Notes under the pieces: generated by a model
What the model was told of the DNA's origin: nothing
The model's input: only the letters and a program-made list of their open reading frames with translations
Databases searched by the model: none
Made by a program: the position numbers and the translations under genes
Shown here: in pieces, positions 8,877-37,901 of the stretch
How positions within the stretch are numbered: the stretch's first letter is position 1
How the letters are laid out: every line of letters starts with the position of its first letter
From: Bacteroidia bacterium
GTDB lineage: Bacteria > Bacteroidota > Bacteroidia > Chitinophagales > JAUHXS01
Reading direction: 5' to 3'
Assembly: GCA_030426955.1 (NCBI GenBank)
Contig: JAUHXS010000004.1
Coordinates: forward strand, 1 to 64,000
DNA: 64,000 nt

Positions 8877-8924
8877 AACATTTTGATTTTTAATTGTTAA
8901 TAAATAAAAATTATCGAACAGTAG

Positions 8925-8955
8925 CAAATTTAGTAGGTTTTACGGTAATTCCAAA
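8925..8955 (-). promoter_or_regulatory. hup promoter (TTTG-N19-TAAATTTG)
   Basis: On the minus strand TTTG (8955-8952) is followed after 19 bases by TAAATTTG (8932-8925), matching both boxes of the Bacteroidota sigma-ABfr promoter. The start codon is 49 bases downstream. The rest of the 307-base gap between hup and the repeat-protein gene (8877-9183) is AT-rich and shows no other recognisable feature. Confidence 0.8.
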
Positions 8956-9183
8956 TTTTTTTCTCTCAAAATGACTGATATATCTACAATACAGCATGAT
9001 TAAAGACTTTTCATAAAACATAAATTACTAAAAATCAATTAATTAAACTATGTAAATGTATATTATATTTTTTTCAACATTTTTCCTGCGAAATCCACAA
9101 TTGGCAAAGGTTTTGGCATTTTTCGACCCGTAATATGCTAAATTGGACAATATTTTAGTAAGCAAAACGTATCTTTATTGAAG

Positions 9184-11040
9184 ATGAAGCATACTTTTCA
9201 CGTCTTTGGAATTGCCGTTTTTTTGTTTTTTGTCCATGGGGGAATTGCTCAACAAAACCCATTCCCAAACTCTAAACAACCTTATGAAGAACACAAATCA
9301 AACAGCAATACGAAACGTTACGACATAAAACCTTTTCACCCTACAAACAAGAGAGATAAAACTAATGTGAAGGCCTCTGTTGCCAAGGAGTATGAGACAG
9401 AGTCTCAGTCTTACAAAGCCAAACCAGAAGAGAAGATAGGGATTTTCGGTCCACAAGTAAAGTTTCCATACATGGAGGCTCTCTCAACGAAAAAGAAAAT
9501 TGCTAAGGAATATGAAACCGCTAACCAATCTTTTAAAGTAACTCCATCAAAAGAACCTGCCTTATTAACACCAGTAAAACTCATTCCTATAGAAAAGCAA
9601 GAGACTAAAGCCTCTATTGCTAAAAAATATGAAACTTCTACCCAATCCTTTAAGGCATCGATACCTATCAAATCGGGTATATTCGGTGAATCTGGGGGCA
9701 ATATAGACAAAACGCCTACTTCCGTTCCAAAATCCTTGGCTAAAAGTTATGAGACCTCCACACAATCTTTCAAAGCTCAGGAAAACCAAAAACAAGGAAT
9801 TTTCGGAGAAACAAACGGAAAAGTCAATACCAAGCCCACAAGTGTATCAAAGTCGATAGCTAAAAGATATGAAACAACGTCACAGTCGTATAAAGCATCA
9901 CAAAATAAGAAATCCGGAATATTTGGCGAGTCTGCAGGAAATGTAAGCCAGACACCTACTTCTATTCCCAAATCTTTAGCGAAACAATTTGAAACATCTA
10001 CACAATCTTATAGAGTAACTTCTGTGGAAAAATCAGGAGTATTCGGAGAAACTGGTAAAACAATTGATAGAACACCTCAAAGTATTAGCAAATCAATTGC
10101 AAAAGACTATGAAACCTCTACTCAGTCATTCTATACCAAGATATCTGAAAAAAAGGGAATTTTTGGCGAACAAGTTAAAGCTCCAAATCGCGAGCCTATA
10201 GCAATCAAAAAATCTATAGCAAAGGAACATGAAACTTCTACTCAATCGTTTTACACAAAAGAACTAGAGAAACAAGGCATCTTTGGGGAAACCTCAAAAA
10301 AAGCTCCAGACCAACCTACCGAAGTGAAAAGAAAAATTGCTAAAAGGTATGAAACTGAAATGCAATCTTATTTAATAAGATCAAAAGAAGAAAAAAGTGG
10401 CGTGTTTGGAGAAAGCAATAAAGAAATCGATAAAACACCTTTGACTACTAAGACATCTATCGCTAAAGAATACGAAACAGCCTCTCAATCATTCTATGTT
10501 AAAACAGAACCTAAAAAAGGATTGTTTGGAGAATCCGTTGAATCACCAAAGTCTGCGCCAAGTGTTTCTGCCAAAATTGCTAAAGCATATGAAACAGAAA
10601 GCCAATCTTATAAAGTCTCTGAACAAAAAAAGAAAGGAATTTTTGGAGAGACTGTTAATAATGGAAAAATGGAACCAACAAGCGTAAGCAAAAAAGTAGC
10701 TAAATCTTATGAGAATGGTAACCAGTCATTTTATGTAAGCAATAGCAAAAAAGATGGAATTTTTGGAGATGCTACAAAAATGCGTAGCATGGAGCCAACT
10801 TCGGTAGACGCCAAAACAGCAAAAGAGCACGAAACAGCTGGTCAATCCTATTATGTTAAGAAAAAGGGCAAAAAAGAAATTTTTGGAGAAAAAGCTAATA
10901 AAGTCAGGAAAAGAAGCAAACGTAAGCCTGAAATGGGATTATTCGACCCTGCTATGGACGGTGGCAGAAGTACAAAGAAGCGTAAATACGATAAGAAATC
11001 TCTTGAAGAAGAACCACAAGAGCCAGTTGATAATGAATAA
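9184..11040 (+). CDS. Secreted protein of thirteen 40-residue repeats, function unknown
   Basis: 618 residues from the ATG at 9184; a TTG two codons upstream is also possible. A signal peptide (MKHTFHVFGIAVFLFFVHGG, cleavage near IAQ) leads into about 45 polar residues, then thirteen tandem units of 40 residues. Each unit has two conserved blocks: IAK-x-YETSTQSFK near the start and GIFGE about 18 residues later, joined by variable Lys/Ser/Pro/Thr-rich linkers. The tail is basic (KVRKRSKRKPEMGLFDPAMD) then acidic (EEEPQEPVDNE). I recognise no family, no T9SS sorting domain, no lipobox and no membrane anchor. It lies alone between hup and a convergent DUF899 gene. Confidence 0.85.
   Translation: MKHTFHVFGIAVFLFFVHGGIAQQNPFPNSKQPYEEHKSNSNTKRYDIKPFHPTNKRDKTNVKASVAKEYETESQSYKAKPEEKIGIFGPQVKFPYMEALSTKKKIAKEYETANQSFKVTPSKEPALLTPVKLIPIEKQETKASIAKKYETSTQSFKASIPIKSGIFGESGGNIDKTPTSVPKSLAKSYETSTQSFKAQENQKQGIFGETNGKVNTKPTSVSKSIAKRYETTSQSYKASQNKKSGIFGESAGNVSQTPTSIPKSLAKQFETSTQSYRVTSVEKSGVFGETGKTIDRTPQSISKSIAKDYETSTQSFYTKISEKKGIFGEQVKAPNREPIAIKKSIAKEHETSTQSFYTKELEKQGIFGETSKKAPDQPTEVKRKIAKRYETEMQSYLIRSKEEKSGVFGESNKEIDKTPLTTKTSIAKEYETASQSFYVKTEPKKGLFGESVESPKSAPSVSAKIAKAYETESQSYKVSEQKKKGIFGETVNNGKMEPTSVSKKVAKSYENGNQSFYVSNSKKDGIFGDATKMRSMEPTSVDAKTAKEHETAGQSYYVKKKGKKEIFGEKANKVRKRSKRKPEMGLFDPAMDGGRSTKKRKYDKKSLEEEPQEPVDNE
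9373..10900 (+). repeat. Thirteen tandem coding repeats, period 120 bp
   Basis: The first base of the YET-equivalent codon falls at 9391, 9511, 9628, 9748, 9868, 9988, 10108, 10228, 10348, 10471, 10588, 10708 and 10828. The spacing is therefore 120 bases except for 117/123 adjustments of one codon. Bases have diverged much more than the encoded YET..QSF and IFGE motifs, so the units are old and held by protein-level selection. Unit 2 lacks the IFGE block (PALLTPV instead). Confidence 0.92.
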
Positions 11041-11101: not shown

Positions 11102-11677
11102 TTAATATTCATACTTTGGATGCCAACCATCGGCACCCTTTGGAAACAAATCAAAAAAGTGCCACGCTGAGTTATAATAATCTCCTGGTCCAAAAAAATC
11201 ATAACTGGTCCTGAGAATAGACCCACCTTTTTTTATTAAAGCTGACGCACCTGGAGAATAATATTTTTTTCCATCCTTATGATGTTCAAATCCCAGGTCT
11301 AGAGCAAAATTAGTATCAGCATAACTTATACATGGGAAGTTCCAACTTCTACTAGATGCAAATTCATCTAACACTTCATATTCATTGGGAGACGTTAATA
11401 CAAAGGGCATCCTATCTGAAATTATTTCAGAAAAACCCCTAAAGCCATCTGCCCACATTGTACAATACTTGCATTGCTTGCCCATATTATGAATAATAAG
11501 TAACTCATCTGAATCACCAAAAAGAGACGACAATGTTACATCATTTCCTTGTCTATCCTTAAAATTATAATCTTTGATTTCTTCTAAGGGAAGTTCTTTT
11601 CTAAGGGCTACAACCTCCTCTCTTTGTTTTGCAATAGAAGCTTGTAGCTCGTCGATTTTATTTTGAATATCATTCAT
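11102..11677 (-). CDS. DUF899-like thioredoxin-fold protein
   Basis: 191 residues. An N-terminal helical segment (QNKIDELQASIAKQREEVVA, probably coiled coil) is followed by a thioredoxin-like domain with LLIIHNMGKQCKYCTMWADG, whose CxxC sits at the position of the redox motif, and a C-terminal GPGDYYNSAWHFFDLFPKGA typical of the DUF899 group. Function in this family is uncharacterised; a thiol-redox role is an inference. It lies downstream of kbl on the same strand with a 44-base gap, and converges with the repeat-protein gene. Confidence 0.78.
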   Translation of the reverse strand: MNDIQNKIDELQASIAKQREEVVALRKELPLEEIKDYNFKDRQGNDVTLSSLFGDSDELLIIHNMGKQCKYCTMWADGFRGFSEIISDRMPFVLTSPNEYEVLDEFASSRSWNFPCISYADTNFALDLGFEHHKDGKKYYSPGASALIKKGGSILRTSYDFFGPGDYYNSAWHFFDLFPKGADGWHPKYEY

Positions 11678-22806: not shown

Positions 22807-23280
22807 ATGACCAGGTTTTTAGGAGAATTTGAATGTAAGGTTGACGCTAAGGGGCGTATAAAATTCCCTAGTGCACTAAAGAAGCAGCTCCTTCCGGAAG
22901 CAAACCAGAAGTTTGTCATTAACCGTGGGTTTGAGAACTGTCTTGTGCTGTACCCGAATAATGAATGGGAAATCATCAGCACAGAGATCAACAAGCTCAA
23001 TCTATACGTCAAGAAAAATCGAGACTTTGTTAGATACTTTTATCGAGGCGCAACAGAGTTGTTATTGGATGGAACTGACCGCCTATTACTTCCAAAGAGT
23101 CTACTAGAGTACTCTTCTATTAAGAAAGAGCTTGTCTTATTTGCCTACTCAAACAGAGTCGAGGTTTGGGATAAAACACTTTATGGAAAGCTATTAACGG
23201 ATGAACCTAATGATTTTGCGGAGTTGGCAGAAGAGGTCATGGGGCGAATAAACCAAAATAACGACACAGATGTACCATAA
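22807..23280 (+). CDS. mraZ: Transcriptional regulator MraZ
   Basis: 157 residues. MraZ is a ring-forming AbrB-like (SpoVT/AbrB fold) DNA-binding protein and the conserved first gene of dcw clusters. Two copies of its domain are visible: LGEFECKVDAKGRIKFPSAL near the N-terminus and TELLLDGTDRLLLPKSLLEY near 80, each with the D-x-x-GR/D-R-hydrophobic-P motif. VEVWDKTLY is the usual C-terminal segment. The gene overlaps rsmH by 11 bases. The upstream 10-bp box array supports self-repression. Confidence 0.96.
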   Translation: MTRFLGEFECKVDAKGRIKFPSALKKQLLPEANQKFVINRGFENCLVLYPNNEWEIISTEINKLNLYVKKNRDFVRYFYRGATELLLDGTDRLLLPKSLLEYSSIKKELVLFAYSNRVEVWDKTLYGKLLTDEPNDFAELAEEVMGRINQNNDTDVP

Positions 23281-24163
23281 GGCTGTGATGCTAGAAGAAT
23301 GCATTGATGCTTTAAATATTAAAAGTAATGGGATATATGTCGATGGTACATTCGGCGGTGGCGGTCATTCAAAAGCTATTCTAAATAGTTTAGGCTCTGA
23401 AGGAAAATTATATGGCTTTGATCAAGATATAGATGCTCAGACCAATGCAATTGATGATACTAGGTTTACTTTCATCCATGCCAATTTCAGACACTTAAAA
23501 AGATATCTAAAACTACATCAAGAGACCAGTATTGACGGCATCTTGCTTGATTTAGGCATTTCTTCTTATCAGATAGATACAGCTGAAAAAGGATTTTCTA
23601 CTCGCTTTGAAGGCCCTCTGGACATGCGCATGGATAAAGATATACCTATAAGTGCCAGAGATATCGTCAATAATTATTCTACTGAAGAACTACAAGATAT
23701 TTTTAGCCAATATGGAGAGGTAAGGAACGCAAAAACTTTAGCAGAGACAATAGATAGAGAACGAAGCATATCTGCAATTGAAACGACCAATCAATTAACT
23801 AACATCCTCTCCCACTTAAGCCATGGCAACCCTAACAAATACTATGCTCAAGTTTTTCAGGCACTAAGAATCGCAGTTAATGAAGAGCTGAAGTCATTAA
23901 AGGAGGTTTTAGCACAATGCGGAGAAATCCTTGGTCAAAAAGGAAGACTTGTTGTCTTAACCTATCACTCCCTGGAAGACCGCTTGGTAAAATACTATGT
24001 AAAGACAGGAAATTTTGATGGCAACCCTACAAAAGATCAATTTGGCAATCTCATTAGACCAATGCAATGGGTGAACAGAAAACCTATTTATGCTAACGAA
24101 GAAGAGATTAAAGCAAACCCCAGGTCACGTAGTGCAAAGCTAAGGATTGCCGAAAAAATTTAA
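23270..24163 (+). CDS. rsmH: 16S rRNA (cytosine1402-N4)-methyltransferase
   Basis: 297 residues, formerly MraW. It methylates N4 of C1402 in the ribosomal P site using SAM. HKAVMLEECIDALNIKSNGI leads to the SAM motif VDGTFGGGGHSKAIL; GILLDLGISSYQIDTAEKGF and the later LVVLTYHSLEDRLVKYY are family signatures, and NPRSRSAKLRIAEKI is the conserved C-terminus. It overlaps mraZ by 11 bases and is followed after one base by the ftsL-like gene. Confidence 0.97.
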   Translation: MYHKAVMLEECIDALNIKSNGIYVDGTFGGGGHSKAILNSLGSEGKLYGFDQDIDAQTNAIDDTRFTFIHANFRHLKRYLKLHQETSIDGILLDLGISSYQIDTAEKGFSTRFEGPLDMRMDKDIPISARDIVNNYSTEELQDIFSQYGEVRNAKTLAETIDRERSISAIETTNQLTNILSHLSHGNPNKYYAQVFQALRIAVNEELKSLKEVLAQCGEILGQKGRLVVLTYHSLEDRLVKYYVKTGNFDGNPTKDQFGNLIRPMQWVNRKPIYANEEEIKANPRSRSAKLRIAEKI

Positions 24164-24164
24164 C

Positions 24165-24500
24165 ATGGAGGAAAGTAACGAAAAAAGCACAACATCCATT
24201 TTCAGCATAAGAAGATTCTATGCTTACTTAAGCTACGATAACATCGTTAGGAATATTCCATTCATGGTTTTCTTAGCCATAATTGCAATGTTCTATATCT
24301 GGAATACTTATTACTCCGAAAAGACTCGACGAGATATTGACAACATCAAAAAAGAGCTAAAAGGTCAACGGTGGCATTATGTTTCAGCTAAGTCAGATCT
24401 AATGTACAAAAGCAAGCAGTCTGAGGTTTCTAAGGTTGTCGAGAAATATGGACTTAAAGAGCTGGTATCCCCACCTAAAAAGATTGTAGTCAAGAAATAA
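24165..24500 (+). CDS. ftsL: FtsL-like bitopic division protein
   Basis: 111 residues from the ATG at 24165, one base after the rsmH stop; a TTG at 24147 inside rsmH is less likely. A cytoplasmic tail of about 30 residues precedes one membrane helix (IPFMVFLAIIAMFYIWNTYY, about 39-58) and a periplasmic helical segment (RRDIDNIKKELKGQRWHYVS). FtsL forms a coiled-coil complex with FtsB and FtsQ. Sequence identity across FtsL proteins is very low; the call rests on topology and position between rsmH and ftsI. Its stop overlaps the ftsI start (TAATG). Confidence 0.82.
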   Translation: MEESNEKSTTSIFSIRRFYAYLSYDNIVRNIPFMVFLAIIAMFYIWNTYYSEKTRRDIDNIKKELKGQRWHYVSAKSDLMYKSKQSEVSKVVEKYGLKELVSPPKKIVVKK

Positions 24501-26596
24501 TGAGCGTTAAGAAAGACATATTATGGCGCATATATGTTGTCTTTGGACTAATTGTCCTGCTAGGCTCATCGATTATTTTCCAAGCATTTAGAATCCAGGT
24601 GCTAGAGGGAGATTATTGGAGAAGTCTAGCTGATAGCTTAACCACCTCCTATCGATCGATTGAGGCAGAAAGAGGCAACGTTTATTCCGAAGATGGCAGA
24701 TTTCTAGCTACTCTACTACCCTATTTTGAAGTTCGCATGGATGTCAATACCGCTGCATTGACAGATGAAATTTTTTACAGCAAGGTTGACTCTTTAGCGC
24801 TAAACATGAGCAACTTTTTCCAGGATGCCTCTTATGACTCTTACAAAAAATACTTCCTGAAAGCTAGAAAGTCAGGCAAGCGATACTTATTGGTAAAAAG
24901 AAAAGTATCCTACCCTCAATTGTTAGAAATGAAAAAGTGGCCTCTATTTCGAAGAGGTAGATACAAAGGAGGTTTTATTACCATTCAGCACAACAAAAGA
25001 GAGAATCCTTTCAAAATGTTGGCCCATCGAACAATAGGATATGTCCGAGAGGAAGTTCAACCAGTTGGGCTAGAAGGAAGGTTTGATGAGCATTTAGCAG
25101 GTGTAGAGGGGAAAAGGTTAATGCAAAGAATTTCTGGTGGTGTTTGGATTCCAATTAACGATGAAAATGAAATAGAATCTCAAAATGGGAAGGATTTAGT
25201 AACCACAATCAATGTTGACTTACAAGATGTGACTGAAAATGCTTTACTAAAAACACTAAAGAAGCACAATGCTGATCACGGTAGTGCTATCCTAATGGAA
25301 GTAAAAACAGGTAAGATCAAAGCAATCGCCAACCTAGGAAGGATTAAAAAGGGAGAGTATTGGGAAAAATACAACTATGCTATTGGAGAAGGCACAGAAC
25401 CGGGATCTACTTTTAAACTAGCCTCAATGCTAGCCTTGTTTAAAGATGGTTATGTTTCACTAAATGATAGTGTTGATCTAGAGGGTGGTGTAAAAAGATA
25501 TTACGATAAAGACATGCCCGACTCTGAAGAACACGGCTACGGAAACGTTACCGTTCAGAGAGCTTTTGAAATATCATCCAATGTTGGTATATCCAAACTC
25601 ATTCATAAATACTATGATGAAAATCCTGAAAAGTTCATTCAACATTTAAAAGATTTTGGACTAGATAAAAAGACTGGAATTGAGATAGATGGAGAGGCTA
25701 CTCCATTCATTAACTCTCCAGGACATAGTAGTTGGAGTGGCATTGCATTGCCATGGATGTCTGTTGGATACGGTGTACAACTCACACCGCTTCAGACCTT
25801 ATCCCTTTATAATGCTATTGCAAATGATGGAATCATAATGAAACCATATCTGGTATCTGCTATTCAGGAGTATGGTCAGAATGTTATTGAGTTTCAACCT
25901 CAACAAATGAGTAAGCCTTTGGCATCAAAAGCCATTTTAAGCAAAATGAGAACAATGTTAGAAGGCGTAGTAGAGACTGGAACTGCAAGATACATCAAAA
26001 GTAAAGACTACAAAATAGCGGGCAAAACAGGAACTGCAAAAATTGCCGATAAGAAAAATGGATATAGAAAGATCTACCAAGCCTCTTTCGTCGGGTACTT
26101 CCCTGCCGATGAGCCACAGTACTCCTGCATAGTTGTAGTGAGTGCTCCGTCAAATGGAATCTATTATGGAAGTCTTGTTGCAGGACCCGTATTCAAAGAA
26201 ATAGCAGACAAAGTCTTTGCCAACAGTACTCAAATGCATCACTCTATTAACGAAAATCAAATTTACTATACAGACAATATCCCATATTCAAAAGTAGGCT
26301 ACCAAGCAGATATCAGTCACATCTATAATAAAATGGGGATTTCTCACAACATAGACAATGATGCCACTTGGGTCTCCTCTGCTAAGAAAAACCACTCCAT
26401 GAAAATGGAAGAACGAAAAGTAATTGATGGATTAGTACCAAACGTAACAGGTATGGGCCTGAGAGATGCGGTCTATCTGCTAGAGAACCAAGGGATGAGA
26501 GTAAAAGCGAAAGGAAATGGCAGAGTAAGAAGGCAATCCATTGCTGTAGGTCAGAAAATATCTAAAGGACAAACCATCACAATAGAACTGAGCTAA
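24500..26596 (+). CDS. ftsI: Penicillin-binding protein 3 (FtsI), septal transpeptidase with PASTA domain
   Basis: 698 residues. It cross-links septal peptidoglycan in partnership with FtsW. An N-terminal membrane helix (about 10-30) is followed by a pedestal domain (RSIEAERGNVYSEDGRFLAT) and the transpeptidase with the active serine S303 in EPGSTFKLAS (SxxK), SSN in EISSNVGISK, and KTG in AGKTGTAKIADKK. A single C-terminal PASTA domain (LVPNVTGMGLRDAVYLLENQ) is added. Both ends overlap neighbours by one base, indicating tight coupling. Confidence 0.97.
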   Translation: MSVKKDILWRIYVVFGLIVLLGSSIIFQAFRIQVLEGDYWRSLADSLTTSYRSIEAERGNVYSEDGRFLATLLPYFEVRMDVNTAALTDEIFYSKVDSLALNMSNFFQDASYDSYKKYFLKARKSGKRYLLVKRKVSYPQLLEMKKWPLFRRGRYKGGFITIQHNKRENPFKMLAHRTIGYVREEVQPVGLEGRFDEHLAGVEGKRLMQRISGGVWIPINDENEIESQNGKDLVTTINVDLQDVTENALLKTLKKHNADHGSAILMEVKTGKIKAIANLGRIKKGEYWEKYNYAIGEGTEPGSTFKLASMLALFKDGYVSLNDSVDLEGGVKRYYDKDMPDSEEHGYGNVTVQRAFEISSNVGISKLIHKYYDENPEKFIQHLKDFGLDKKTGIEIDGEATPFINSPGHSSWSGIALPWMSVGYGVQLTPLQTLSLYNAIANDGIIMKPYLVSAIQEYGQNVIEFQPQQMSKPLASKAILSKMRTMLEGVVETGTARYIKSKDYKIAGKTGTAKIADKKNGYRKIYQASFVGYFPADEPQYSCIVVVSAPSNGIYYGSLVAGPVFKEIADKVFANSTQMHHSINENQIYYTDNIPYSKVGYQADISHIYNKMGISHNIDNDATWVSSAKKNHSMKMEERKVIDGLVPNVTGMGLRDAVYLLENQGMRVKAKGNGRVRRQSIAVGQKISKGQTITIELS

Positions 26597-28062
26597 TGCC
26601 CAACTTGAGAGATATATTATACGGTGTTAATATTGTTGAAGTTCATGGCTCAACGGACATTGAGATCAAGAGTATTGGCTTTGACTCTCGAAATATCAAT
26701 AGTGATGATGTCTTTATTGCTACAAAAGGCACTCAAGTAGATGGGCATCAATTCATAAACCAAACCATTCAGAACGGTGTTTCGGCGATTGTATGTGAAG
26801 ACCTCCCTAGTTATATATCAAAAGATATCACTTTTATAAAAGTACAAGATAGTTCAAAAGCGCTAGCCATAATGGCATGCAACTTTTTTGACAACCCTTC
26901 TCAAAAGCTACATCTGGTTGCAATTACAGGAACGAATGGCAAGACAACACTTGCAACTTTATTATATAAGTTGTTTCGATCACTGGGATACAAAGTAGGA
27001 TTATTATCAACTGTGGCCAACAAAATCAATGACTCCGTCATAAAGGCTACTCATACAACCCCTGATGCTATTCAAATCAACCAATTACTGAACGATATGG
27101 TTGAGGCGGGATGCGAATATTGCTTTATGGAAGCAAGTTCTCATGCAATCGATCAAAACAGGATAGCTGGCTTGAAATTGTCAGGAGCTGTTTTTACAAA
27201 TATTACACATGACCACTTAGACTATCACAAAACATTCGATGCTTACATTGCAGCAAAGAAAAAGCTATTTGACAATTTAAGTTCAGGCTCATTTGCTTTA
27301 TCAAATATTGATGACAAAAGAGGTTTGGTAATGCTACAGAATACCAAATCGAAGAAATATACTTATGCCCTAAAGTCACCATCTGATTTCAATGCTAAAA
27401 TTCTAGAAAATAGCTTCTTAGGGCTTACCCTGAACATCAACAATCACGAGGTTCACACGACACTTATTGGACAGTTCAATGCTTACAACACGCTTGCAGT
27501 TTACGCAACAGCCATTCTCTTAAAACAAGATGAGATAGAAGTTTTGCAAGCCATTAGTTCTATTACTGGAGCAGAAGGCAGGTTTGAACACACGACTTCC
27601 CCCAATGATAAAGTCATTGGTGTTGTGGACTATGCACATACTCCTGATGCACTGAAAAATATCATAGACACGATAAATGATATCAAGTCAGGCAACTCTA
27701 GATTAATCACGGTAATAGGATGTGGTGGAGATAGAGACACTTCAAAGCGTCCAATCATGGGTGAAATTGCCAGTAAGAATAGCAATCAAACCATTTTTAC
27801 TTCTGACAATCCAAGAAGTGAAAACCCTGAAAATATCATTCAAGACATGATTAAAGGTGTTGGTCCTGTTGAAATGAAAAAGGTCTTGTCAATAACAGAT
27901 AGAAAAGAGGCAATAAAAACAGCTTGCACACTAGCTCAAAAAGAAGACGTCGTCTTGATAGCTGGAAAAGGACATGAAACCTATCAAGAAATCAATGGTG
28001 TTAAGCACCCTTTTGATGACAAAGAGGTATTGGAAGAAACCTTTAAAATGCTCAATAAATAA
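26596..28062 (+). CDS. murE: UDP-MurNAc-L-Ala-D-Glu:meso-diaminopimelate ligase
   Basis: 488 residues. It adds the third residue of the peptidoglycan stem peptide. The three Mur ligase domains are visible: an N-terminal UDP-binding domain ([19 protein letters not shown]), a central ATPase with [19 protein letters not shown], and a C-terminal domain with [16 protein letters not shown] and [16 protein letters not shown]. The motif DNPRSENP selects meso-diaminopimelate rather than lysine, so the cell wall is of the DAP type. The start overlaps the ftsI stop by one base; the same arrangement joins it to mraY. Confidence 0.97.
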
Positions 28063-29324
28063 TGCTATACTATTTATTTAAATATCTACAAGAAGCCTAT
28101 AACCTCACAGGAGCAGGTGTATTCCAATATATATCCTTTAGAGCAGGCATTGCCGTCATTACGGCCTTGCTTATCTCTGCAGTTCTAGGAAAGAAAATCA
28201 TCGAAATTTTAAGGAGAAAGCAAATGAAAGAGACCGTTCGTGACCTTGGCTTGCAGGGACAGCTCGAAAAACAAGGCACGCCTACAATGGGAGGGCTTAT
28301 CATTATTGCAGCAATCCTCATCCCTACACTTTTGTTTACAAAAGTGTTCAACATTTATGTTTTGCTCATGTTATTGGTGACGGTTTGGATGGGTGCCATC
28401 GGTTTTTTAGATGATTATATCAAAACCTTTAAAGGCAATAAAGAAGGATTACCGGGAAAGTTCAAAGTGTTTGGGCAAGTTGCGCTCGGCTTAATCGTGA
28501 GTATTGTTTTTTACTGCCATGAAGATGTAGTTGTGAGACAGGAATTTTCAGATCACATCAAAAACCAAATAAAGACAGAGAAAAATGTCAACTCTGTAAT
28601 GGTTAAAAACGAGTCAGGAGGCGAACAACTGATGTTTGACACCAAAGCTCCTATTACTACTATTCCATTTTTCAAGAACAATGAGTTCAACTACGGCACA
28701 CTCATCTCGTGGATTACAGAAGATTATATGAAATGGTCATTCATTGTTTTCATTCCTATTGTTATTTTCATCATCACGGCTGTTTCAAATGGTGCAAACA
28801 TCACCGATGGGCTAGATGGTTTGGCAACAGGCAACTCCGCCATCATAGTAGCCACTCTAGCCATATTTGCCTATGTATCTGGCAACGTAGTCTTCTCTCA
28901 GTACCTCAATATCATGTACATCCCTAATGCAGGGGAGCTAGTAGTTTTTTCAGCTGCATTTATCGGAGCATGTGCTGGCTTCCTATGGTACAATGCTTAT
29001 CCGGCACAAGTATTTATGGGCGATACTGGAAGCTTAACCATTGGTGGGATCATTGCTGTATTGGCTATCATGATAAGAAAGGAGCTTCTCCTGCCCGTAT
29101 TGTGCGGTGTCTTTTTAATAGAAAACCTTTCTGTCATTATTCAAGTTGGATACTTCAAATACACTAAGAAAAAGTTTGGAGAGGGTATTAGAATTTTCAA
29201 AATGGCCCCTCTCCATCATCACTATCAAAAGTTAGGATTTCACGAAACAAAGATTGTAACAAGGTTTTGGCTTGTAGGTGTCTTATTGGCAGCATTAACC
29301 ATACTAACATTAAAACTAAGATAA
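28062..29324 (+). CDS. mraY: Phospho-MurNAc-pentapeptide transferase
   Basis: 420 residues. It makes lipid I by joining phospho-MurNAc-pentapeptide to undecaprenyl phosphate at the inner membrane. It is polytopic, with the conserved [40 protein letters not shown] (metal-binding Asp pair), [15 protein letters not shown] and [12 protein letters not shown]. Compared with the 360-residue E. coli protein it carries an extra polar stretch of about 50 residues (around 155-210: [20 protein letters not shown] and beyond) between membrane helices, which I recall as common in Bacteroidota MraY. Confidence 0.97.
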
Positions 29325-29325
29325 G

Positions 29326-30665
29326 TTGGCAAAGCAAATTACCATCTTAGGGGCAGGGGAAAGTGGAATAGGTGCAGCATTGCTTGCAAAGAGCAAAGGG
29401 TATAATGTTTTTGTATCCGATGGTGGCAAGATCAAAGATGTTCACATTGCTGAGCTAGATGCTAATGATATAACTTATGAGACTGGTCAACACACCAAGG
29501 ATAAAATATTATTAAGCGATGAGGTTATCAAAAGTCCAGGAATTCCTAATGAAGCAGAAATTGTAACATTAGCAAATGAAAAAGGAATCCCTGTGATTTC
29601 TGAAATTGAGTTTGCCTCCAGGTATGCTAATGGCAAAATAATAGCGATTACTGGGTCTAATGGGAAGACAACTACAGCAACACTTACACATCACATTCTC
29701 AAAAATGCGGACCTAGATGTTTCACTAGTTGGAAATATCGGAAAGAGCTTTGCTCGACAAATTTTTGAGCAACAGTCAGATTATTATGTACTTGAGATCA
29801 GCAGTTTTCAATTAGACAATATTATTGATTTCAAGCCTGATATGGCGATCATCCTAAATATCACACCAGATCATTTAGATAGATACAATAATGATTTTCA
29901 AAAATATGTTGAAGCAAAGTTTAAAATTGCTGCTAACCAAACTACCGATGATCAATTGATTTATTGCCTTGATGATGAGACAATAGTCAATCAACTAGAA
30001 AAAGCACCGGTAGCATCGACACTTATTCCATTTACCATTAAAAAAAAAACTTATCAAGAGGTGCATTCCTCAATGATGATCAACTAACCATTAAACTAAA
30101 CAATAAACAATTTAATATGTCAATTTACGACTTAGCATTGTCCGGAAATCACAACGTTTACAACTCGATGGCAGCAGGAATTGTCGCCAATCTAATCGAT
30201 CTACGAAAAGATACGATTCGAGAGAGCATGAATCACTTTCAAAACGTAGAACATCGATTAGAATTTGTCAATAAGATAAACGATGTACGATACATCAATG
30301 ACTCAAAGGCTACCAATGTAAATTCTACCTGGTATGCATTGGAAACTCTTGACAAACCAATTGTATGGATTGCAGGTGGTGTTGACAAAGGAAATGATTA
30401 CGAACTGCTTGTTCCCTTAGTAAAGGAAAAGGTAAAGGCAATTGTTTGCATGGGAGAGGATAACCGAAAAATTCACGAAGCATTTCTAAAACACGTTGAC
30501 CTCATTGTAAATACCAATAGTGCTAAGGAGGCTGTTAAAATGTCCCATTATCTAGCTGATAAAGGAGACACAGTATTATTATCTCCTGCTTGTGCAAGCT
30601 TTGACTTATTTGAGAATTATGAAGATAGAGGAAGACAATTTAAAAAAGCAGTAAGAAATCTGTAG
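29326..30665 (+). CDS. murD: UDP-MurNAc-L-Ala:D-glutamate ligase, split by a frameshift at an A10 run
   Basis: MurD adds D-glutamate to UDP-MurNAc-L-Ala. The first frame starts at a TTG one base after mraY (AKQITILGAGESGIGAAL) and carries the ATP site ITGSNGKTTTATL and ILNITPDHLDRYNNDF. It runs into a TAA at 30085 after the out-of-frame tail TYQEVHSSMMIN. The second frame carries LALSGNHNVYNSMAAGIVAN, RLEFVNKINDVRYINDSKAT and LLSPACASFDLFENYEDRGR. A -1 shift at the ten-A run (30040-30049) gives FTIKKKNLSRGAFLNDDQL and an unbroken 446-residue enzyme of normal size. Because MurD is essential with no second copy in view, the gene is listed as coding; an automatic pipeline would call it a pseudogene. 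Confidence 0.9.
30040..30049 (+). other. Ten-adenine slippery run inside murD
   Basis: The zero frame reads ATT AAA AAA AAA ACT. A one-base backward slip reads AAC TTA after the third AAA and continues in the downstream murD frame. The run contains the classical A AAA AAA heptamer and is also long enough for RNA polymerase slippage. A single-base sequencing or assembly error in the homopolymer would look identical. Confidence 0.85.
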
Positions 30666-31835
30666 ATGAATCTTTCCGTACAATGGATATTATCTAAGCT
30701 TGGTGGCGACAAAATAATGTGGCTGGTCGTGTTCTGCCTGTCACTTTTTTCTATACTTGCCGTTTACAGTTCCACTGGTACTTTAGCTTACAAATACCAG
30801 TCGGGTAATACGGAATACTATCTTTTAAAGCACTTTTCTATCCTGCTTTTAGGATTTATCTTAATGTATATCGCACATATATTTAACTATAAATATTATT
30901 CTAAAATATCTATCGTACTGCTTTACATTTCAATACCGCTCCTGATAATTACATTATTTGCTGGAACCAACATCAACCAAGCAAATAGATGGCTAACACT
31001 ACCCATCATTAACCTGACCTTTCAGACATCTGACCTAGCAAAGCTTTCGCTCATCATGTACACAGCTCGATTCCTATCAAGAAGACAGCAAGACATTAAA
31101 GATTTTAGAAAAACCTTTCTCCCAGTGCTAGTCCCTATTGTAATAGTTTGTTTAATTATCGCACCAGCCGATTTCTCATCGTCCGCTATGCTTTTCTTCA
31201 CTTGTTTTCTACTATTATTTATCGGTCGAGTCAACTTAAAGTACTTAGGTCTCCTTGTTGGTGGCGGTATTGTTGGGATATTACTAATGTTTACACTTTT
31301 GTTCGCATTACCAGATAATATGATGGTTGGACGTATGTCTACTTGGAAAAAAAGAGTAGAGAATTTTGCCAACTCAGACAAATCTGAAACACCTTATCAA
31401 GTGAAACAAGCAAAAATTGCGATTGCTAAAGGTGGTGTTTTCAAAATTGATCCAGGAAGTAGCGTTCAAAGAAACTACTTACCGCACCCCTACTCTGACT
31501 TTATTTACGCTATTATAATAGAGGAGTATGGATTGATCGGAGGATTCTTTATCGTCTTCCTTTACATCTTATTTCTCTATCGAAGTATCAGAATTGTTGC
31601 CAAAAGCCCCAAAGCTTTTGGGGCCTTACTCGCTGTTGGGCTTAGCATTAGCCTAGTAATTCAAGCTATGATCAATATGGCCGTTACGGTAAACTTATTG
31701 CCAGTGACGGGGTTAACACTTCCTATGGTTAGTATGGGCGGAAGTTCACTTTGGTTCACCAGTATCGCTATTGGTATCATATTAAGCGTAAGCAGAGATA
31801 TTGAGAAAAATGCAGAAAAAGAAGCTTTAGCATAG
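30666..31835 (+). CDS. ftsW: Septal peptidoglycan polymerase FtsW
   Basis: 389 residues. A SEDS-family glycosyltransferase that polymerises lipid II at the septum together with FtsI. About ten membrane helices are apparent. Family motifs include NINQANRWLTLPIINLTFQT with the SDLAKLSLIMYTARFLS segment, the large extracytoplasmic loop PYQVKQAKIAIAKGGVFKID, PHPYSDFIYAIIIEEYGLIG, and the C-terminal TGLTLPMVSMGGSSLWFTS. RodA shares the fold; position inside the dcw cluster supports FtsW. It abuts murD and murG with no spacer. Confidence 0.97.
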   Translation: MNLSVQWILSKLGGDKIMWLVVFCLSLFSILAVYSSTGTLAYKYQSGNTEYYLLKHFSILLLGFILMYIAHIFNYKYYSKISIVLLYISIPLLIITLFAGTNINQANRWLTLPIINLTFQTSDLAKLSLIMYTARFLSRRQQDIKDFRKTFLPVLVPIVIVCLIIAPADFSSSAMLFFTCFLLLFIGRVNLKYLGLLVGGGIVGILLMFTLLFALPDNMMVGRMSTWKKRVENFANSDKSETPYQVKQAKIAIAKGGVFKIDPGSSVQRNYLPHPYSDFIYAIIIEEYGLIGGFFIVFLYILFLYRSIRIVAKSPKAFGALLAVGLSISLVIQAMINMAVTVNLLPVTGLTLPMVSMGGSSLWFTSIAIGIILSVSRDIEKNAEKEALA

Positions 31836-32927
31836 ATGGGTAACGGAGCTAAAATATTAATCGCAGGTGGTGGTACAGGAGGTCATATCTTCCCGGCCAT
31901 TGCTATTGCTAATGCACTTAAGCGACTTCATGGAAATTCCGAGTTTCTTTTTGTTGGTGCGAGTGACCGAATGGAAATGCAAAAAGTTCCTGAAGCAGGT
32001 TACAAAATCAAAGGTCTTTGGATAAGTGGTTTACAAAGAAGATTAACATTAAAGAATTTATTGTTTCCTCTTAAAGTACTGGCTAGCCTTTTGAAAAGCT
32101 ACTCTATTATTAAAAAGTTCAAACCAAATGTTGTTATTGGTGTTGGCGGATATAGCAGTGGACCTGTCACTTATATATCAACGGTATTGAATATCCCTAC
32201 CTTAATTCAAGAACAAAACTCTTTTGCTGGCATTACCAATAAATTAGTAGCTAATAGGGTGAATAAGGTATGTGTTGCTTACGAAGGGATGGAACGTTTT
32301 TTCCCAAAAGAAAAAATAGCGCTTTTAGGCAATCCAGTAAGAGAAGAGATTCTAGAATTCTCCAAAATAACAAAGCAACAAGCGTTGGAGACTTTTGAAT
32401 TAAAGCCTAATATCAAAACAGTTTTGATCATCGGTGGAAGTCTTGGCGCCCGAACCATTAATCAAAGCATTGCAGGTAGTTTAGAAAAACTACAAGATGT
32501 TCAGCTACTTTGGCAATGCGGCAAAAACTACTTTGAAGAATGTCAGCAGCATACCAGTGATAAAGTAAAAGTTCATCAATTTATTAAAGACATGAAGAGC
32601 GCTTACGCAGCAGCTGATGTTATTGTTTCTCGCGCCGGAGCCATTTCTGTATCAGAATTATGTTTGATAGGAAAACCAATTATCCTCGTCCCTTCGCCCA
32701 ACGTTGCCGAAGATCACCAGACTAAAAATGCAATGGCATTGGTTCAAAAAGATGCAGCATTATTAGTTTCAGACAGAGAATCGAAGGAGTGCTTAGCAGA
32801 TACACTTCTAGGCTTGCTCAAAGATGAAGCAAAGCAAAAAACGCTTTCTGAAAACATAGTAAAACTTGGTAAACCTAATGCGACTGAGGATATCGCCAAA
32901 GCAGTGCTACAACTAATAGCTTTATGA
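31836..32927 (+). CDS. murG: UDP-GlcNAc:lipid I N-acetylglucosaminyltransferase
   Basis: 363 residues, GT28 family. It converts lipid I to lipid II on the cytoplasmic face of the inner membrane. The N-terminal glycine-rich loop ILIAGGGTGGHIFPAIAIAN, the membrane-contact region IKKFKPNVVIGVGGYSSGPV, the second G loop IIGGSLGARTINQSI and the donor-binding VIVSRAGAISVSELCLIGKP are all present. Its stop overlaps the murC start (ATGA). Confidence 0.97.
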   Translation: MGNGAKILIAGGGTGGHIFPAIAIANALKRLHGNSEFLFVGASDRMEMQKVPEAGYKIKGLWISGLQRRLTLKNLLFPLKVLASLLKSYSIIKKFKPNVVIGVGGYSSGPVTYISTVLNIPTLIQEQNSFAGITNKLVANRVNKVCVAYEGMERFFPKEKIALLGNPVREEILEFSKITKQQALETFELKPNIKTVLIIGGSLGARTINQSIAGSLEKLQDVQLLWQCGKNYFEECQQHTSDKVKVHQFIKDMKSAYAAADVIVSRAGAISVSELCLIGKPIILVPSPNVAEDHQTKNAMALVQKDAALLVSDRESKECLADTLLGLLKDEAKQKTLSENIVKLGKPNATEDIAKAVLQLIAL

Positions 32928-34315
32928 ATATAGCTGAGCTAAATAACGTTTACTTCATTGGCATCGGTGGTATCGGCATGAGTGCTATTGCACAGTATTT
33001 TCATTCAAAAGGAATTGCGGTAAGTGGTTATGATAAAGCCAGCACCCCTATCTCAGATATGCTAAGCCTAAAAGGAATAGATATTCATTATGAGGAAAAC
33101 GTTGACAGAATTCCAAAAGAAACGAATTTAGTAGTTTACACCCCTGCCATCCCAAAAGACCATAAAGAGTTAAACTATTTTATAGATAACAACTATAAAG
33201 TAATGAAGCGATCTGAGGTGTTACAGTTTATTACAAAGGACGCTTTTACCATAGCAATTGCTGGGTCTCACGGGAAAACAACTATTTCCAGTATGGTGGC
33301 TCATGTATTAAAATCATCCAATATCGATTGTACGGCATTTTTAGGAGGCGTTTCTGTCAATTATAAAAGCAACTTTATTCCCGGAAATGACAAGATCATG
33401 GTTGTGGAGGCAGATGAATACGATCAATCGTTCTTGAGGCTCTCACCAGACATTGCAGTAATCACAGCTATTGATAGCGATCATTTAGATATTTACCAGA
33501 CTCAAGAAAACGTAAAGAAGGCTTTTGCAAACTTTGCATCTAAAATTAAATCCAACGGCACGCTGATCCAAAAAAACGTAGTAAATATATCTACTACAAA
33601 TAAATCCACTAAAAGTTTTCAATACTCACTCGACAATTCAAATAGTGATTACCATGGGACAAATATTGCTATTCGGTCTAATAAGTTTCACTTTGATATT
33701 CACAGCTCGGGTCAAGTTACTACTGATATTAGCATCAATTCAGGAGGTAGATACAATATTGAAAATGCAATTGCTACCTATGCCGTTGCGGATCAATTAG
33801 AAATCTCTAAAGAAAATATCAAAAAAGGTATTAGCAGCTTTCAGGGTGTTAAAAGGCGGTTTGAATATATTGTCAAAACAGATGATTACGTATATATCGA
33901 TGATTACGCACATCATCCAGAGGAAATTAAAGCAGTAACTAAAGCTGCTCGTGAGTTATATCCTCAAAAAGAATTGACAGTTGTATTTCAACCGCATCTC
34001 TATTCACGAACAAGAGATCTTGCTGAGGGCTTTTCCGAGGCGCTATCACAAGCAGACCGTATAATCTTAATGCCTATATACCCTGCTAGAGAGCTTCCAA
34101 TAGAAGCTGTTAACTCTGAGATGTTGTTAAACCAAATCTCAAAAAGCGACAAGCAAGTGCTTTCCAGGATGGAGCTATTAGAATTTACTCAAAATAATGA
34201 TTGCGAGCTACTCATGACACTCGGTGCCGGGGATATTGACCAATCGGTTGAGACGATTAAAAATATTTTGCTAGAGAAAGTAAATGCTAAACTAGAAACA
34301 AAGTTGAGTAGATGA
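32924..34315 (+). CDS. murC: UDP-N-acetylmuramate:L-alanine ligase
   Basis: 463 residues. It attaches the first stem-peptide residue to UDP-MurNAc. The N-terminal domain has VYFIGIGGIGMSAIAQYFHS, the ATPase centre IAIAGSHGKTTISSMVAHVL and VVEADEYDQSFLRLSPDIAV, and the C-terminal domain IDDYAHHPEEIKAVTKAARE with VVFQPHLYSRTRDLAEGF. Domain layout and length are typical. ATGA overlaps join it to murG and ftsQ. Confidence 0.97.
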   Translation: MNIAELNNVYFIGIGGIGMSAIAQYFHSKGIAVSGYDKASTPISDMLSLKGIDIHYEENVDRIPKETNLVVYTPAIPKDHKELNYFIDNNYKVMKRSEVLQFITKDAFTIAIAGSHGKTTISSMVAHVLKSSNIDCTAFLGGVSVNYKSNFIPGNDKIMVVEADEYDQSFLRLSPDIAVITAIDSDHLDIYQTQENVKKAFANFASKIKSNGTLIQKNVVNISTTNKSTKSFQYSLDNSNSDYHGTNIAIRSNKFHFDIHSSGQVTTDISINSGGRYNIENAIATYAVADQLEISKENIKKGISSFQGVKRRFEYIVKTDDYVYIDDYAHHPEEIKAVTKAARELYPQKELTVVFQPHLYSRTRDLAEGFSEALSQADRIILMPIYPARELPIEAVNSEMLLNQISKSDKQVLSRMELLEFTQNNDCELLMTLGAGDIDQSVETIKNILLEKVNAKLETKLSR

Positions 34316-35094
34316 AGAAATTCTGGCCCAAAATAAAAAAGATATTGCGTGCATTAGGTGTTCTCACACTTTTTGCTGGCACTATATTTTTACTAAGTGC
34401 GACTTCTTCCCATCACAAGTCTATCACATGTAAGTCTCTCAGTATTGATATCGACAGAGCCAATGGTAATTATTTCATTAATGATAATGATATCAAGTCT
34501 ATCATTGAGGCAAAAGTAAAAGATAGTATCATCGGTAGTGTGATATCTAAAATCAACTTTGATCAAATAGAACATAAGATAAACACCATACCATATATCA
34601 AAAATGTACAAACCTATATCAATAAGAAAGGGGAGCTAAAAATTGATATCAATCAACGCTCTCCTATCGTTAGAGTTATCAACAAAAAAGGTGTTAGTTA
34701 TTATATTGATGATCAAGGGGAAAAGATGCCAATATCTGATAAATTTACAGCTAGAGTACCTATTGCTAATGGCTACATTATAGACAACGACAGCACAGAA
34801 GGAATTATTGACAGTCCGGATGTAAAGCAAGTTTATGAATTAGCAATGTACCTTAAAGAGGACCAGTTTTGGGAAGCACAGGTAGAACAAATATACAGAG
34901 ACAAGCAAAAGGGAATCATTATTATTCCCAAACTGGGAAATCACAGTGTAATAATTGGTGATGTAAATAACTTAGAAAAGAAATTTAAAGACTTAATGCT
35001 TTTTTATAACAATGGGCTAAAATATATGGGATGGTACACCTATAAAAGTATTGATTTGCGATACGAAGGACAGATAGTGTGTACAAAATATTAG
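34312..35094 (+). CDS. ftsQ: Cell division protein FtsQ/DivIB
   Basis: 260 residues. A short cytoplasmic tail and one membrane helix (ALGVLTLFAGTIFLLSATSS, about 15-34) lead into a periplasmic region. The POTRA-like domain (about 40-120: IDRANGNYFINDNDIKSIIE, then IPYIKNVQTYINKKGELKID with INQRSPIVRVI) and the beta domain with YYIDDQGEKMPISDKF follow. The final IDLRYEGQIVCTKY is the usual Bacteroidota ending. FtsQ links early and late divisome proteins. Sequence similarity in the family is weak, but layout and position are clear. Confidence 0.92.
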   Translation: MKKFWPKIKKILRALGVLTLFAGTIFLLSATSSHHKSITCKSLSIDIDRANGNYFINDNDIKSIIEAKVKDSIIGSVISKINFDQIEHKINTIPYIKNVQTYINKKGELKIDINQRSPIVRVINKKGVSYYIDDQGEKMPISDKFTARVPIANGYIIDNDSTEGIIDSPDVKQVYELAMYLKEDQFWEAQVEQIYRDKQKGIIIIPKLGNHSVIIGDVNNLEKKFKDLMLFYNNGLKYMGWYTYKSIDLRYEGQIVCTKY

Positions 35095-35124
35095 ACTATT
35101 GTTAACTAAATAAAAACAGCTAAA

Positions 35125-36420
35125 ATGGAGACAAACCCGGAAATAGTAGTTGGACTAGATATAGGAACTACCAAAATATGTGCCATCGTTGGTAAAAGAA
35201 ATGAGCACGGTAAAATAGAGATTCTCGGCATGGGGAAGACAGAATCCCTAGGAGTCATGCGTGGTGTAGTGTCCAATATTGAAAAAACGGTAAACGCCAT
35301 TCAACTAGCTGTTAAAGAAGCTGAAGAAAAAGCCGGAGTTGACATCAATATAGCTTATATCGGAATTGCAGGACAGCATATCAAAAGCTTACAGCATAGA
35401 GGTATTTTAGTTAGAAACTCTAACGAGAATGAAGTTAACAATGAAGACGTCAGTAAATTAATAGATGATATGTATCGATTGGTTTTACCTCCTGGTGATA
35501 AAATCATACACGTATTACCTCAAGAGTTTATCATTGACAATGAACAAGGCATTAAAGACCCAATTGGTATGTCTGGTGTAAGACTTGAAGCTAATTTTCA
35601 CATTATTACCGGTCAAATTGCCGCTGCAAAAAACATCAACAAGTGCGTGGAAAAGGCTAGCGTTGAAGTAGCTGATTTAATTCTTGAGCCACTAGCTTCA
35701 TCTGTCGCAGTATTAAGTGAGGAAGAAAAAGAAGCAGGCGTAGCATTAGTTGACATAGGTGGAGGAACGACTGATATCGCTATTTTCCAAGAAGGTATTA
35801 TTCGACATACTGCAGTTATTCCTTTTGGTGGGAATAGTATTACAGAAGATATCAAAGAAGGTTGTTTAGTTATGAAGAACCAGGCAGAATTGCTGAAAAC
35901 TAAATTTGGTTCTGCCCTAGCTACAGAAACACAAGAAAATGAAATCGTATCTATTCCTGGATTAAGAGGAAGAGAGCCTAAAGAAATTTCAGTTAGAAAC
36001 CTTGCACATATCATTCAAGCAAGAATGGAGGAAATCATAGAGCATGTCTACTATGAGATCAAAAGTTCAGGATACGAGAAAAAATTAATTGGTGGGATCA
36101 TCGTTACTGGTGGTGGTTCTCAGTTGAAAAATTTAGTTCAATTAGTCGAATACGTAACCGGAATGGATGCAAGAATAGGATACCCAACGGAACATCTGGC
36201 AGGAAGCACAATCGGTCAGTTGAAAGACCCTATGTATGCTACCGGAATTGGCTTGATCATCAAAGGATTTGAAGATCAAAAAAGAGCAGAAAAATCTCAA
36301 AATAACACGAGCACAGAAACTACTGGTACCGTTTCACAAGACGACAAACCGAAGTGGTTTGAATCCATTTTCAAGAAAGGGAAAGAGTGGTTAGAAGAAG
36401 AAATTGAAAATGATTTTTAA
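35125..36420 (+). CDS. ftsA: Cell division protein FtsA
   Basis: 431 residues, actin-like ATPase that anchors FtsZ to the membrane. The first phosphate loop is VVGLDIGTTKICAIVGKRNE; the 1C (SHS2-like) insertion covers about 80-165; the second phosphate loop is GVALVDIGGGTTDIAIFQEG; the adenosine site is GGIIVTGGGSQLKNL. A Ser/Thr-rich linker follows, and the end (FKKGKEWLEEEIENDF) can form the amphipathic membrane-targeting helix. It is 26 bases before ftsZ. Confidence 0.97.
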   Translation: METNPEIVVGLDIGTTKICAIVGKRNEHGKIEILGMGKTESLGVMRGVVSNIEKTVNAIQLAVKEAEEKAGVDINIAYIGIAGQHIKSLQHRGILVRNSNENEVNNEDVSKLIDDMYRLVLPPGDKIIHVLPQEFIIDNEQGIKDPIGMSGVRLEANFHIITGQIAAAKNINKCVEKASVEVADLILEPLASSVAVLSEEEKEAGVALVDIGGGTTDIAIFQEGIIRHTAVIPFGGNSITEDIKEGCLVMKNQAELLKTKFGSALATETQENEIVSIPGLRGREPKEISVRNLAHIIQARMEEIIEHVYYEIKSSGYEKKLIGGIIVTGGGSQLKNLVQLVEYVTGMDARIGYPTEHLAGSTIGQLKDPMYATGIGLIIKGFEDQKRAEKSQNNTSTETTGTVSQDDKPKWFESIFKKGKEWLEEEIENDF

Positions 36421-36446
36421 TAAACTAGAATCATAAAACAAATATT

Positions 36447-37901
36447 ATGATACAATTTGATCTACCAAAAGAGAAGTCATCTATTATAAAGGTAATTGGC
36501 GTTGGCGGAGGAGGAAGCAATGCCGTGATTAACATGTATAATCAAGGCATTAAAGGAGTAAACTTCATTATATGCAATACTGATGCACAGGCAATGGATT
36601 TAACTTCTATTCCGAATAAAGTTCAATTAGGTCCAAGTCTTACAGAAGGCAGAGGAGCTGGCTCCTTACCGGAGATTGGTAAAGAAGCAGCGCTAGAGTC
36701 TTTAAGTGAAATACGCGAATACTTAGAGTCTAACACCAAAATGGTCTTCATTACTGCTGGAATGGGCGGTGGCACCGGAACTGGTGGAGCACCTGTTATC
36801 GCTGAGTTAGCTCAAGAAATGGGAATTTTAACCGTTGGTATTGTAACAACTCCTTTCTCTTTTGAGGGCAGAAGGAGACATCAACAAGCAGATGAGGGTT
36901 TGGAAGAATTCAGAAAGCATGTTGACTCGCTATTAGTTGTTTCTAATGATAAGCTTAGAGAGATACACGGCAACTTGAAGCTTTCAGATGCATTTACACA
37001 AGCTGATAATATTCTCACAACAGCAGCGAAAGGAATTGCTGAAATCATAACAGTTACTGGATATGTAAATGTTGACTTTGAGGATGTCAATACTGTAATG
37101 CGAAATAGTGGTGTTGCCATCATGGGATCCGCTATTGCAGAAGGAGAAGATCGTGCCCAAAGAGTGGTGCAAGGAGCATTAGCCTCACCACTATTGAATG
37201 ATAATGACATCAGAGGAGCAAACTATATCCTCCTAAATATTTCCTCCGGCAGTACAGAGGTTACTATGGACGAAATATCCGAAATAACAGACTATATTCA
37301 ATCTGAAGCAGGTAATAGTGCTGACATCATTTGGGGAAATTGCTTTGACGAAAGCTTAGAAGATAAATTGAGCCTAACTATTATTGCTACCGGATTTGAA
37401 GCTGAGCAACATAAGAGAATGGCCAATAAGGTTAATGAAAAAGTAATTCTTCCTTTAGATGACCAGCCAAAGAATGAAACGATTACTGAGGAAACCCCCG
37501 AACAACCAACTTCAACTAGTCAAATAAACTTTGAATTCAATCTGGATAGTAAAAGCACACCTCCTCAAGAGACAAGCAAAACACCTGAGAAGATTGTTGA
37601 CACAAGAAACTTGGACAACCGTCAAACTAATGCTTCGAGGACTAGTCAGACATCAACCGACAACTCCACGGGGAAAAGTCCTAATCTTAGTATGAGGTTG
37701 CGAAACGCCTACTCCATAACTGAGCTAGAAAGACAGCCAGCATATTTAAGGCGCAATATTGAGCTAGATGAAACAAAGCACTCTTCAGAAGCTCCAGATT
37801 TATCTAGGTATAGTCTCAACGAAGAGACAAACCAAGAGGGCGAGGAAGAAAAACCGATATTCAAAAAAAATAATTCCTTTCTACATGACAATGTAGATTA
37901 A
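36447..37901 (+). CDS. ftsZ: Cell division GTPase FtsZ
   Basis: 484 residues, tubulin homologue forming the Z ring. The GTPase domain shows [20 protein letters not shown], the tubulin signature [20 protein letters not shown], and [16 protein letters not shown]. From about residue 325 there is a long, poorly conserved Ser/Thr/Pro/Glu-rich linker (about 140 residues), then the C-terminal segment [15 protein letters not shown], which probably binds FtsA. The extended linker accounts for the length above the 383 of E. coli FtsZ. It is the last classical gene of the cluster. Confidence 0.98.

Follow-up and report, generated by a model that had tools for sequence, protein, structure and literature searches.

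A thirteen-unit repeat protein with a predicted signal peptide and a 40-residue pitch from an isolated Bacteroidota lineage

Known repeat proteins and the layout of the locus

Exported repeat-containing proteins are common. The GLFG/FG-repeat nucleoporins are eukaryotic and carry many regularly placed FG motifs in a poorly hydrophobic chain. For the TRP120-type tandem repeat proteins of Ehrlichia, function has been ascribed to a short linear motif that is repeated (PMC8546699). T9SS cargo proteins of Bacteroidota carry a sorting tail (TIGR04183/PF18962).

The protein described here is encoded by a gene of a Bacteroidota genome, in a window of 64,000 nucleotides (the whole stretch of DNA that was analysed). 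Like the FG-repeat nucleoporins, it combines regular [ILV]-FG motifs with a chain of low hydrophobicity. However, it is bacterial and has a putative signal peptide, Lys/Glu-rich spacers and a second motif, AKx[YHF]ExxxQS[FY], and the Pfam FG-nucleoporin models gave no match to it at E up to 1. With the TRP120 type, compared by description only, it shares the character of an apparently secreted bacterial tandem-repeat protein, whereas nothing in the present data points to an intracellular lifestyle for its host. It is like T9SS cargo in that this route is heavily used in the same genome, but it lacks the sorting tail. The features of the locus are as follows.

9184 to 11040, + strand: coding sequence of the repeat protein, 618 amino acids, without Cys or Trp
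9184 to 9249, + strand: putative signal peptide (MKHTFHVFGIAVFLFFVHGGIA, followed by QQ), read by eye from the sequence, with probable cleavage after A22 and no lipobox
9250 to 9366, + strand: non-repeat N-terminal segment
9367 to 10923, + strand: thirteen repeat units of 39-41 amino acids each
9367, 9487, 9604, 9724, 9844, 9964 and 10084, + strand: starts of units 1 to 7
10204, 10324, 10447, 10564, 10684 and 10804, + strand: starts of units 8 to 13
10924 to 11037, + strand: C-terminal tail, basic and then acidic, with one degenerate GLFD motif and no T9SS sorting domain
8883 to 9183: intergenic region separating the repeat gene from a divergent HU gene
11102 to 11677: convergent downstream neighbour, a DUF899/AhpC-TSA-like thioredoxin-fold protein

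The start codon is the ATG at 9184, with the stop at 11040 and a further in-frame TTG at 9178. The encoded protein has a pI of 9.6 and a net charge of +37, and its mature chain is about 66 kDa. In the tail, a basic part (KVRKRSKRK..STKKRKYDKK) precedes an acidic part (SLEEEPQEPVDNE), the order given in the initial annotation.

Repeat units and the age of the array

The repeat motif occurs at amino acids 70, 110, 149, 189, 229, 269, 309, 349, 389, 430, 469, 509 and 549. The resulting intervals of 40, 39, 40, 40, 40, 40, 40, 40, 41, 39, 40 and 40 residues agree exactly, in all 12 cases, with the spacings in bases listed earlier. The unit consensus is VxKSIAKxYETxxQS[FY]...KxGIFGE...PxS. Every unit (13/13) contains AKx[YHF]E[TN]xxQS[FY], within which A6, K7, E10, Q14 and S15 never vary; T11, the Lys ahead of the FG block, and the F and G are each kept in 12 of 13. 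Variation at unit positions 9, 16 and 27 stays mainly inside hydrophobic/aromatic classes, hydrophobic columns 1, 5, 6, 9, 16, 18, 27 and 28 recur in each unit, and there are about three aromatics per unit. The YET..QSF block does recur in every unit with conservative substitutions, as first described, but the strict form YETxxQS[FY] is present in just 9/13, the rest being F, H or N variants. Likewise, the GIFGE block reported from nearly all units is found as [ILV]FG in twelve of the thirteen, the FG block having been lost from unit 2, but as exact GIFGE in only six.

The periodicity is far outside chance. Compared with itself at a lag of 40 residues, the mature protein shows an identity of 0.345, and none of 2000 residue shuffles exceeded 0.122; at lags of 80 and 120 its identity is 0.267 and 0.225. 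Together with conservation by codon position, the lag-40 identity rules out a chance or low-complexity artefact. In the conserved columns, between-unit identity at codon positions 1, 2 and 3 is 0.90, 0.89 and 0.49; this bears out the earlier claim that the repeats are selected as protein. The same residue is encoded by the same codon in 0.47 of pairs, compared with 0.43 expected from independent draws. Where pairwise dS between units could be estimated its median is 1.6, with many pairs saturated, and mean dN is about 0.62. Because the codons of the units have diverged, a DNA-level tandem repeat search found no tandem repeat in the gene. Recent tandem duplication of DNA is ruled out by this result and by the near saturation of synonymous codons. 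Since synonymous codons differ almost to the chance limit, the array is old: its units were duplicated long ago and have been maintained since then by protein-level selection.

All 12 intervals stay at 39-41 residues although the spacer columns vary almost freely: outside the Pro-x-Ser end, identity in these columns is 16-17%, against 8-11% after within-row shuffling. Because interval length is held to within one residue while the linker sequence diverges in this way, spacer length is probably under constraint, suggesting a structural pitch and not a plain flexible tether. We regard the repeats, the selection on them, their pitch and the charge of the chain as established.

Relatives and gene surroundings

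A family match required a curated cut-off to be reached or an E of <0.001. The best Pfam-A match to the repeat protein (E 0.13) lay under its cut-off, NCBIfam gave zero matches, the best PHROGs match had an E of 0.068, and the PDB returned nothing by sequence or by unit profile. The initial annotation had placed the protein in no known family, and none of these four collections supplies one. Our literature search found no description of the repeat family. The gene is single-copy and without paralogues in its own genome, and no homologue was found in 60 relatives. The initial annotation had also proposed a profile search with one unit; no relative was found among 399 genomes of the order or 396 genomes of the phylum, two samples that overlap.

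Some weak signals were examined and rejected. A 16-residue match (E 0.003) in a 55-amino-acid frame of the order sample was taken as chance, and relaxing the threshold to E 5 brought out no open frame of that sample with several matches. Two order genomes gave 14-18 matches, spread over several contigs and lying mainly in short frames. When 84,980 named species were scanned with a degenerate-codon pattern that recovers 9/13 units of the repeat gene itself, five isolated single matches and no relative were obtained; the five were treated as chance, and the one inspected (L017) had no repeats. In two of the relatives (G272 and G286), many dispersed weak matches fall on unit-profile columns 21-37, mostly in short frames on several contigs; they have the look of chance translations of an interspersed genomic repeat.

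No other genome of the window's taxonomic family was returned among the relatives, and the asparaginyl-tRNA synthetase shares just 57-69% identity with the enzymes recovered from the order's other families. On these two grounds, missing sister species are the simplest reason for the absence of relatives, and the protein is an orphan within the collections searched.

The repeat gene stands alone, with no operon partner. Upstream lies the divergent HU gene, itself preceded by a glycosyltransferase and an adenosylhomocysteinase (the latter named from its sequence), and no sigma-70-like site was found on the + strand of the intergenic region. No positional counterpart was found within 1.5 kb (less at contig ends) of the glycosyltransferase in 17 relatives that carry it. 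GC content (36.5%) and codon use of the gene match those of the window and neighbouring genes and thus give no hint of recent import. A phage or plasmid origin was rejected on this compositional fit and because phage, plasmid and viral contig records contained no relative.

Elsewhere in the window, a division and cell wall cluster extends from mraZ to ftsZ (22807-37901). The Mur ligase after mraY, in the murD position, is present there as two ORFs (29326-30087 and 30117-30665), the second of which matches the Mur ligase C domain only; the gene may be broken, or the assembly may contain an error here.

Predicted export, structure and possible role

The N-terminus resembles a Sec signal peptide, with a hydrophobic core and probable cleavage between GIA and QQ. 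In the AlphaFold2 model of the whole protein, a helix at residues 5-17 lies in the sole 10-residue blocks with mean pLDDT >70. The protein lacks a lipobox because it contains no Cys, so it does not have the Cys after the signal peptide that marks a lipoprotein. Pfam and NCBIfam profiles for the T9SS sorting tail (TIGR04183/PF18962) gave no match to it at E up to 1, while the same genome encodes SprA and has 142 matches to TIGR04183. These T9SS markers also point to a Bacteroidota host. Because the genome is rich in T9SS tails, yet this protein has none, the periplasm seems a rather more probable location than the surface by way of T9SS. The claim of a secreted protein made at first fits the putative signal peptide, and either a periplasmic or a surface location is predicted. 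As a separate observation, 142 matches to the type A sorting tail look like a heavy load for a 3.4 Mb genome.

The composition of the mature chain favours disorder (GRAVY -1.09 and a negative Uversky value by the charge-hydropathy rule). For the whole protein as a single sequence AlphaFold2 reached a mean pLDDT of 37, and two units modelled from a six-row alignment reached 49; both inputs (1 and 6 sequences) are too shallow to separate disorder from a missed fold. The modelling of two or three units suggested earlier was carried out for two, and it produced no confident fold. Within the repeats, predicted helices are confined to segments like KSLAKQFE- and VKRKIAKRYET, which is compatible with a short amphipathic helix in the units, though at so low a confidence it is no evidence for one. 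The Lys-rich linkers had been described as disordered; composition and the low-confidence models fit this, but their near-constant length argues for a structural pitch.

We favour, at a little below an even chance, an exported multivalent array in which thirteen copies of one binding module are set along a cationic chain with a nearly fixed pitch of 40 residues. Once exported by Sec, the mature protein would remain periplasmic or sit on the outer surface and display the modules, each a short amphipathic segment ([VIT]xx[SK][ILV]AKx[YHF]ET) and then QS[FY]x[VAT] and [ILV]FGE. Specific module residues would recognise one partner, or adjoining modules; the Lys-rich spacers would draw the chain more strongly to anionic surroundings, for instance peptidoglycan, LPS or exopolysaccharide, and the modules would fold on binding. 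We infer export, multivalent binding, the anionic environment and folding on binding from the features above, and consider a surface location and an anionic partner plausible. In favour of this reading are the five residues (A, K, E, Q, S) that never vary despite saturated synonymous divergence, the mainly class-conserving changes at positions 9, 16 and 27, the regular spacing, the net charge and the disorder predicted from composition. Against it stand the lack of an operon partner, the very low confidence of the AlphaFold2 models and the absence of relatives from the collections searched.

A folded repeat protein, either a solenoid or small stacking repeats, is possible though less probable. 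The 40-residue period would then be the rise of the fold, which AlphaFold2 would miss for want of a deep alignment. The pitch, kept at 40 ± 1 while the linkers diverge, and the hydrophobic columns recurring in each unit are what such a fold would be expected to leave, but the hydropathy and Uversky values, the low pLDDT (37-49) and the missing PDB match of the unit profile speak against it.

We think it improbable that this is a matrix protein that self-associates or adheres, with a function like that of mussel foot proteins or FG-repeat nucleoporins, in which evenly spaced aromatic stickers and Lys spacers gel or coat surfaces. The regularly spaced aromatics, high Lys and twelve [ILV]FG motifs would suit it; however, the invariance of A, K, E, Q and S is unexpected for a pure sticker and appears to exceed the needs of a compositional one, nor was any signal for exit through the outer membrane, for example a T9SS tail, detected. 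Least likely, and very improbable, is a peptide precursor, either cleaved at Lys/Arg into repeated peptides or of the multi-core modified-peptide type: its tandem cores with basic residues in between would look similar, but the neighbours include no maturation enzyme, spacer lengths are kept as well as cores, and the putative signal peptide is of Sec type.

Within the multivalent array that we favour, a more specific proposal, which we hold as doubtful, is that an undescribed module (AKxYETxxQS[FY], a 7-8-residue spacer and KxG[ILV]FGE) repeated at the 40-residue pitch would serve this isolated Bacteroidota lineage as an envelope ruler or cross-linker, offering up to thirteen sites to a specific envelope partner.

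Judged from its sequence, the thirteen-unit protein appears to represent a new repeat family, though its general type is familiar. The array is unusual: its codon divergence shows it to be old and it is still clearly selected, yet it has no relative in the collections searched. Until a partner or relatives come to light, it chiefly illustrates the uncharted exported proteins of isolated lineages. If the module binds one partner, it would represent a new repeat family with a naturally multivalent and easily dissected design.
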